From: Candidatus Zhuqueibacterota bacterium
GTDB taxonomy: Bacteria; Zhuqueibacterota; Zhuqueibacteria; Residuimicrobiales; Oceaniaggregativiventaceae
Direction: 5' to 3'
NCBI GenBank assembly: GCA_014728085.1
Contig: WJMF01000069.1
Location: 25,465-89,464 of the forward strand
DNA length: 64,000 nt
Below, one piece after another: positions 42,105 through 43,582 of the stretch. Made by a program: the position numbers and the translations under genes. The notes beneath the pieces are model-generated. The model was not told where the DNA came from and ran no database searches. It saw only the letters and a program-made list of their open reading frames with translations. Positions within the stretch are counted from its first letter, which is position 1. Each line of letters opens with the position of its first letter.

Positions 42105-42251
42105 ATTGCGACGCTCTCCTCGCTCATTTTTATACGATCAAAACAATATGCCGTTATATAGTTCTATTAAAATCATCAACTTAAACAGAACAGCCATATA
42201 AGTCGATATAATAGAGCAAATAACAGGCCAAAGAATAAAGAGCGAGTAAAA

Positions 42252-42289
42252 AGCCGCAAAATCAAAAAATTAAAATCGATTTTGCGGCT
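42252..42289 (-). terminator. Intrinsic terminator downstream of greA
   Basis: AGCCGCAAAATC (42252-42263) and GATTTTGCGGCT (42278-42289) form a perfect 12-bp stem with a 14-nt loop. On the minus strand the stem is followed by about five U. It lies just after the greA stop. Confidence 0.85.
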
Positions 42290-42313
42290 CGTATGGGTAA
42301 AAAAATGTTTTGT

Positions 42314-42784
42314 TTAAAAAATTTTTTCAACTCGATAAGTTATCGTGCCGGCGGGAACTTTGATTTCTACGATTTCTCCGATGGTTTTCCCCAATAAAGC
42401 TTTGCCCACCGGAGAGTCGACGGAAACAGCTTCAAGATCAAAGGTGCTGAATTCAGTGGTTGGAACGAGTTCGTATTCAATAATCTCTTCTGTGCCTGTA
42501 TCCACCAATTTTACTTTTTTGCCCACCACGACGCGCTTGCCGTCCGATGCGGACTCGTCCAGTATACGGGCCCGGGATAACATCTCCTCAAGCCGGGAAA
42601 TTTTTCGTTCCACAATCTCCTGTTTTTCTTTTGCCGCAGCATATTCGGCGTTTTCTCGCAGATCGCCGTGCTCACGCGCATCAGTAATATCTTGAATGAT
42701 TTTAGGACGCTCCCTGTATTTTAAGGTATGCAACTCTTTCGATAATTTTTGGTGCTGATCCTTTGAAAGATAAACAGCCTTCAT
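42314..42784 (-). CDS. greA: Transcription elongation factor GreA
   Basis: GreA rescues backtracked RNA polymerase by stimulating transcript cleavage. The 156 residues have an N-terminal coiled coil (about 5-75, with ITDAREHGDLRENAEYAAAK at its tip, carrying the conserved acidic pair) and the C-terminal globular domain with SPVGKALLGKTIGEIVEIKV. ATG 42784 has AAGGAG 7 nt upstream. It is monocistronic: its own terminator lies downstream and a terminator-like hairpin lies in its leader. Confidence 0.95.
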   Translation of the reverse strand: MKAVYLSKDQHQKLSKELHTLKYRERPKIIQDITDAREHGDLRENAEYAAAKEKQEIVERKISRLEEMLSRARILDESASDGKRVVVGKKVKLVDTGTEEIIEYELVPTTEFSTFDLEAVSVDSPVGKALLGKTIGEIVEIKVPAGTITYRVEKIF

Positions 42785-42822
42785 ATAAACTCCTTATTAT
42801 TCCAAGATCAATTTGAGCCAAT

Positions 42823-42851
42823 AAAAAAAAGGCCTTTTCAGAGGGCCTTTT
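42823..42851 (-). promoter_or_regulatory. Terminator-like attenuator in the greA leader
   Basis: On the minus strand AAAAGGCC (complement of 42844-42851) pairs with GGCCTTTT (complement of 42827-42834) around a 9-nt loop and is followed by several more U, giving an intrinsic-terminator shape. It lies about 40 nt upstream of the greA ATG and about 40 nt after the predicted transcription start, so it can end transcription before the gene. Confidence 0.6.
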
Positions 42852-42894
42852 GCGGTTAGCAAAAAAGAGAACATATTCTTTATGTCGCTTCTAA

Positions 42895-42923
42895 AAGCTA
42901 CTAAAAAAACCCTTATGTGTCAA
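42895..42923 (-). promoter_or_regulatory. Putative greA promoter
   Basis: A perfect TTGACA (42918-42923) and TAGCTT (42895-42900) are 17 bp apart on the minus strand. Transcription would start near 42888, giving a roughly 65-nt RNA if it stops at the leader hairpin and a leader of about 100 nt to greA. Confidence 0.5.
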
Positions 42924-43060
42924 TGAAAATTTTCATCTTTTTTTATTAGAATTTTTTGTCAGAAGATTGTATATTGAACTCTTTGATAAAAGCCGGGAAA
43001 AAATTTTACCGTCATCCGGAAAAATTTTCGGGCCAATACAAACAAAAAACACAGGCAAGT

Positions 43061-43582
43061 ATGAAACGAAAAGTAGTGGTCATCACAACAGGGGGAACAA
43101 TTGAAAAAATTTATGATGAGGATAGCGGAACGCTGAGCAATCGCGGTTCGCACCTGCGACAAATGTTAAAAAGATTGCGTCTGCCCTATACGCATGTGGA
43201 ACATCACGATCTAATGAGCAAAGACTCCCTGGACATGACAGAAGAAGACAGGAAGAAACTTGTCGCAACGGTCGAAAAGCTTCTGAACACCGTTCCCATC
43301 ATCATCCTGCACGGAACAGATACCATGCAGGTCACGGCAGAAAGATTATATGAAACATTCGCTGATTTATCCGCTCCGATCATTCTCACCGGTGCAATGA
43401 AACCGTTCGGATTCGAGGATTCGGATGCGCTTCAGAATTTCACCGAAGCCCTGATTGCATCAGAACTCGTCAAGCCCGGTGTCTACATTACCATGCACGG
43501 TAAAATTCATGTGATGCCGGGTGTTCGCAAAAACCGTCAGCATCGTACCTTTGAAAAGAGTGATGATCCGTTGCAGGATTAA
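43061..43582 (+). CDS. Short asparaginase-domain protein
   Basis: The 173-residue protein corresponds only to the N-terminal domain of type I/II L-asparaginases: VVVITTGGTIEKIYDED with the catalytic Thr, and IIILHGTDTMQVTA with the second Thr/Asp pair. The C-terminal domain is absent. Short single-domain versions exist in other bacteria, so this is probably not a truncation. ATG 43061 is preferred over an upstream in-frame ATG at 42956, whose extra 35 residues are not family-like. Real asparaginase activity is uncertain because the active site normally borrows residues from the missing domain. Confidence 0.75.
   Translation: MKRKVVVITTGGTIEKIYDEDSGTLSNRGSHLRQMLKRLRLPYTHVEHHDLMSKDSLDMTEEDRKKLVATVEKLLNTVPIIILHGTDTMQVTAERLYETFADLSAPIILTGAMKPFGFEDSDALQNFTEALIASELVKPGVYITMHGKIHVMPGVRKNRQHRTFEKSDDPLQD

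Follow-up and report, generated by a model that had tools for sequence, protein, structure and literature searches.

This study examined the greA locus within the window, a 64,000-nt stretch of contig WJMF01000069.1 from Candidatus Zhuqueibacterota bacterium (order Residuimicrobiales, referred to here as the order). The features of the locus, in the direction of transcription, were as follows:

42918..42923 (-): -35 element TTGACA of the greA promoter, read from the sequence; TTGAC(A/T) is kept at all 20 of the order's greA loci
42895..42900 (-): -10 element TAGCTT, with a 17-nt spacer to the -35 element, read from the sequence and conserved in the order
42888 (-): expected greA transcription start, +/- 2 nt, placed 7 nt past the -10 element
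42857..42864 (-): possible weak antiterminator arm TTTTTTGC, pairing with GCAAAAGG at the 5' arm of the hairpin; not significant against shuffles
42827..42851 (-): predicted 8-bp terminator hairpin AAAAGGCC-CTCTGAAAA-GGCCTTTT, about -9 kcal/mol, beginning near +38; based on sequence and shuffles, and unlike the +1 hairpin of the relatives
42823..42830 (-): U tract of eight T, then ATT; expected stop site of a leader RNA of ~65 nt, from the sequence
42790..42795 (-): ribosome binding site AAGGAG, assigned by eye
42314..42784 (-): greA, 156 aa, ATG at 42784 (Pfam PF03449, E 2e-25; PF01272, E 3.9e-17)

The arms of the hairpin, AAAAGGCC (42851-42844) and GGCCTTTT (42834-42827), enclose the loop CTCTGAAAA on the minus strand, and four of the eight T in the T run are also base-paired within the stem. 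The promoter, hairpin, and U-run described in the original prediction were verified on this strand, and a start near 42888 with a stop at 42823 gives the leader RNA of ~65 nt that it had proposed. The encoded protein carries the GreA residues D41 and E44, which were invariant across 16 members of the order. The promoter spacer is T-rich beside the -10 element (TTTTTATTAG; window 42918-42888) in nearly all order members. A divergent gene of ~173 aa, in which Pfam identified an asparaginase N-terminal domain only, lies at 43061-43582 (+), and the same asparaginase-like neighbour apparently adjoins greA in loci L014, L016, and L018.

The hairpin of the window is by itself only modestly above chance, and the comparison with other genomes carries the case. 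It comprises 8 bp, four of them A-U, and a 9-nt loop (p about 0.015); an equal or stronger terminator was reached by 15/1000 dinucleotide shuffles of the 105-nt leader and by 18/1000 shuffles of the 240-nt intergenic stretch. The folding energy of the whole leader was not unusual (z -0.19). A generic scan of the window detected neither the promoter nor the hairpin because the -10 element matches TATAAT at only 3/6 positions and the loop measures 9 nt. The AAAAGGCC...GGCCTTTT hairpin occurs twice in the whole genome, the copy in the greA leader included. For the antiterminator candidate TTTTTTGC/GCAAAAGG, shuffles matched the occlusion in 23% of cases, and in 5.6% when energy was also considered.

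Across 60 related genomes, GreA searches located greA in 20 members of the order, counting the window's genome. The results revealed a promoter, a hairpin, and a T-run at all 20 loci. The 17-nt spacer was present in 20/20 promoters, and the -10 element was TAGYTT in 18/20 and TACAAT in 2/20. An automatic terminator rule, defined as a hairpin with dG <= -8 plus a T-run, was positive in 18 of the 20 leaders; the two that it missed (L014 and L016) have long loops. In the 19 relatives, a long stem with the consensus (G)CAAACCGAATCGG...CCGATTCGGTTTG(C) begins some 4-8 nt past the -10 element, that is, at approximately +1, and is followed by the T-run, giving an expected leader RNA of 41-57 nt (median, 46). 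Many loci place the hairpin 18-60 nt upstream of the ATG, and this short distance leaves little space for a further promoter. The upstream gene was divergent at 15/20 loci, the window among them, so at most loci no incoming transcript would have to be stopped.

The stem of the relatives covaries. Two-sided changes were observed in 11/17 pairs across the 19 genomes, and 94.7% of the cells were paired, versus 26-49% for slid controls. G-U cells outnumbered A-C cells by 20 to 6 (binomial p 0.009, ignoring relatedness), and the covariance model gave the greA strand a much higher score than the complementary strand; both results suggest that the selected form is an RNA on the greA strand. The covariance analysis of related leaders called for in the original prediction, which would have been damaged by a lack of leader conservation, thus found conservation instead. 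Two further features of the relatives' leaders were observed. Six stem pairs were invariant across the 19 genomes (L003-L021; 5' arm CAAACCG, 3' arm CGGTTTG), beyond what pairing demands, and L005 and L008 (genus g4) carry the 3' arm again, as TTCGGTTTG, directly past the T-run.

As controls, leaders of other genes were extracted by a mechanical rule from the window and, in five related genomes, from 400 kb of sequence; the gene starts, too, were set mechanically, which trimmed some of these leaders. A promoter combined with a terminator was found in 0/140 of these leaders from the relatives and in 0/17 other leaders of the window, where greA was the sole positive; a terminator anywhere within 300 nt was present in 18/140. 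Shuffled greA leaders gave a mean of 0.8/20 positives. The mean number of T in the 8 positions after the best hairpin was 7.1 in the order, 5.8 in Bacteroidota, and 2.8 in the background; counting began past the final G or C in the stem and thus includes T paired with A, and the best hairpin was selected without a T requirement. No A-run preceded the stem in the greA hairpins examined for T-runs, and a T-run past a stem without such an A-run is the hallmark of intrinsic termination. Model R1, a covariance model built from the +1 hairpin of the 19 relatives, matched the greA leader in 19/19 other greA-bearing genomes, as it must by construction; its remaining matches were mainly to its own complement, to two hairpins that sit at the 3' ends of genes, and to weak sites. 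A role for the +1 hairpin as a regulon element elsewhere was considered and set aside: the two better extra matches (G010 and G011) each lie directly past the end of a gene and resemble ordinary terminators. R1 matched nothing in three genomes of the order: that of the window, and two that are incomplete and yielded no greA.

The genome of the window departs from this pattern. Its best R1 matches had E-values of 1.25 or weaker, none of them at greA. The same promoter is followed by ~37 nt and then by a different, shorter hairpin, which no close relative has. In the simplest reading, the hairpin was replaced here while the terminator function was kept. Across the order, the stop site therefore appears to be conserved and the sequence of the hairpin does not. 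The GraL-like layout claimed in the original prediction consequently stands for the order as an arrangement of promoter, hairpin, and T-run (20/20), whereas the window's own hairpin sequence is not conserved.

Beyond the order, greA loci were picked by similarity to the order's GreA, and the sample is thus biased; within it, 47/52 Bacteroidota greA leaders had a terminator. A terminator lay <=15 nt past a TAnnTTTG-type -7 box in 31/52, compared with 0/105 same-locus controls, and where a box could be placed near the hairpin, the median distance was 5 nt. Where the upstream gene was divergent, 22/24 Bacteroidota loci had the terminator, versus 5/64 control leaders with divergent neighbours. In most Bacteroidota leaders (L032-L111), the hairpin and T-run begin 1-8 nt past a TAnnTTTG -7 box and 20-60 nt ahead of the ATG. 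Among Proteobacteria and relatives, a terminator was present in 5/21 greA leaders, none of which had the -7 box, and in 0/6 loci with divergent neighbours. In the window's class outside its order, 12/22 loci were positive by the rule, with differing stem sequences; the presence of the hairpin was mixed in the other classes of the phylum. Family f10, which belongs to the window's class, had no hairpin at any of its seven loci, where leaders are mostly very short. Six of these loci (L025, L027, L031, L171, L173, and L177) showed a short leader directly past a TATATT-type -10 element. The hairpin appears to have been either lost in f10 or absent ancestrally. Because f10 and the sampled Proteobacteria with divergent neighbours lack the hairpin, greA does not need one. 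One outgroup match, L212, was set aside since its hairpin resembles the terminator of a 5S-rRNA-like sequence. Taken at the sequence level, the early-stop layout would be a widespread and partly known throttle of greA rather than a one-off.

The arrangement resembles that of E. coli, in which a promoter, a short leader, and a terminator hairpin with a U-run precede greA beside a divergent upstream gene. The E. coli GraL terminator stops ~2/3 of transcripts and lets ~1/3 pass, and in vivo GraL mediates repression of greA by active GreA (D41), an effect that was not reproduced in vitro (PMC6829880). Here, too, a putative intrinsic terminator separates the greA promoter from greA, one feature of a GraL-like leader, and the same terminator scanner detected E. 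coli GraL. The RNA sizes are comparable, with 37-59 nt for E. coli GraL and predicted lengths of ~65 nt in the window and ~46 nt in the relatives. The geometry differs: 19 nt precede the hairpin in E. coli GraL, about none in the relatives, and about 37 in the window. The E. coli greA leader shows no sequence similarity to the window or the sampled relatives. Rfam RF01769 (Enterobacteria greA leader), which scored 127.5 bits on E. coli as a positive control, matched nothing in 42200-43200 of the window at E-values up to 1, and an Rfam search of the window and eight relatives found no family, RF01769 included.

In the ranking of attenuated families by Naville and Gautheret (2010), greA/rnk came seventh; they predicted greA 5' terminators in Proteobacteria, bacilli, and Clostridia without naming Bacteroidetes, and saw an antiterminator in every case (PMC2965389). 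The original prediction had regarded such an arrangement as surprising in a distant lineage, a view that is not supported, given the earlier prediction of greA attenuators in several phyla (PMC2965389). In contrast to those attenuators (PMC2965389), the +1 hairpins of the relatives leave no space for an upstream antiterminator, and the candidate in the window is not significant. The literature searched contained no account of greA leaders in Bacteroides, which, given its limited coverage, is weak evidence of absence. As far as could be found in the searchable literature, the occurrence in this phylum, that in Bacteroidota, and the hairpin-first geometry are new.

These findings suggest, with a probability of roughly 0.7, that the greA leader contains a promoter-proximal intrinsic terminator at which part of the polymerases would be released, greA being expressed by read-through. 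Polymerase starting at the conserved promoter would make the hairpin and U-run within ~65 nt (~46 nt in the relatives), and a fraction of the complexes may then dissociate at the U-run; both the termination and its partial extent are deduced from sequence features. Since the stem of the relatives begins at approximately +1, no upstream antiterminator fits there, and regulation would then act through polymerase-bound factors or elongation kinetics and not through a ligand or an alternative upstream fold. By analogy with E. coli, the efficiency of termination might depend on the condition of polymerase in early elongation, GreA included, as negative feedback; we put this forward tentatively and at less than even odds.

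Several alternatives were weighed against partial termination. Stem-loops at the 5' end protect mRNA in E. coli (e.g., ompA), and the hairpin at +1 might chiefly shield greA mRNA from decay that depends on the 5' end, with termination playing a minor part. The stem in the relatives and Bacteroidota does lie within a few nucleotides of the expected 5' end, as protection requires; however, the near-universal U-run directly past the stem, which is not needed for protection and sets these leaders apart from stabilizing stem-loops of the ompA type, and the position of the window's hairpin at ~+38, too far inside the transcript, render this account improbable. The inverted repeat at +1 might instead be an operator, bound as DNA by a repressor of greA; its position would suit one, and the six invariant pairs (CAAACCG/CGGTTTG core) are conserved beyond pairing. 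Against a DNA site stand the covariation, the preference for G-U over A-C (20 vs 6), and the directional T-run, as well as the differing sequences that the window and other families have at the same place; we consider an operator very improbable.

That the hairpin is the 3' terminator of a co-directional upstream gene, located in the greA leader by accident, is hardly credible. Such a neighbour exists at 28/52 Bacteroidota loci and may end 7-60 nt before the hairpin, but the neighbour is divergent in the window and in 14 other members of the order, the promoter sits upstream of the hairpin, and the excess over controls persists at the divergent Bacteroidota loci described above. For the window itself, this role was rejected: the asparaginase-like neighbour is divergent, and nothing enters from upstream on the minus strand. 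The alternative with the most weight, although still unlikely, concerns the window's genome alone, in which the ancestral +1 terminator may have been lost, the present hairpin being a product of chance or decay and greA constitutive. The failure of R1 to find an ancestral hairpin in this genome, the weakness of the present one (reached by 1.5-1.8% of shuffles), and its absence from close relatives agree with such a loss. Against it, the hairpin unites a GGCC/GGCC core with a run of eight T at the expected place, the genome holds only one other AAAAGGCC...GGCCTTTT hairpin, and other families likewise keep the position of the hairpin while its sequence turns over.

Extending partial termination at greA across the phylum and Bacteroidota, one may speculate that greA mRNA opens with its own terminator, so that the decision to terminate would fall when polymerase has scarcely left the promoter; the terminator would serve as an antiterminator-free read-out of early elongation (pausing, backtracking, and GreA occupancy) in a feedback loop, its position kept across phyla while its sequence turns over; this wider proposal is conceivable but unlikely as a whole. 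The FCB-type loci represent natural variants of the GraL circuit, with the hairpin at +1, moved to ~+38 (window), or lost (f10). Such variants would show whether the leader sequence ahead of the terminator matters for the repression by GreA of its own gene. The FCB-type loci would further point to early termination of greA as a general means of controlling GreA, not an enterobacterial oddity.
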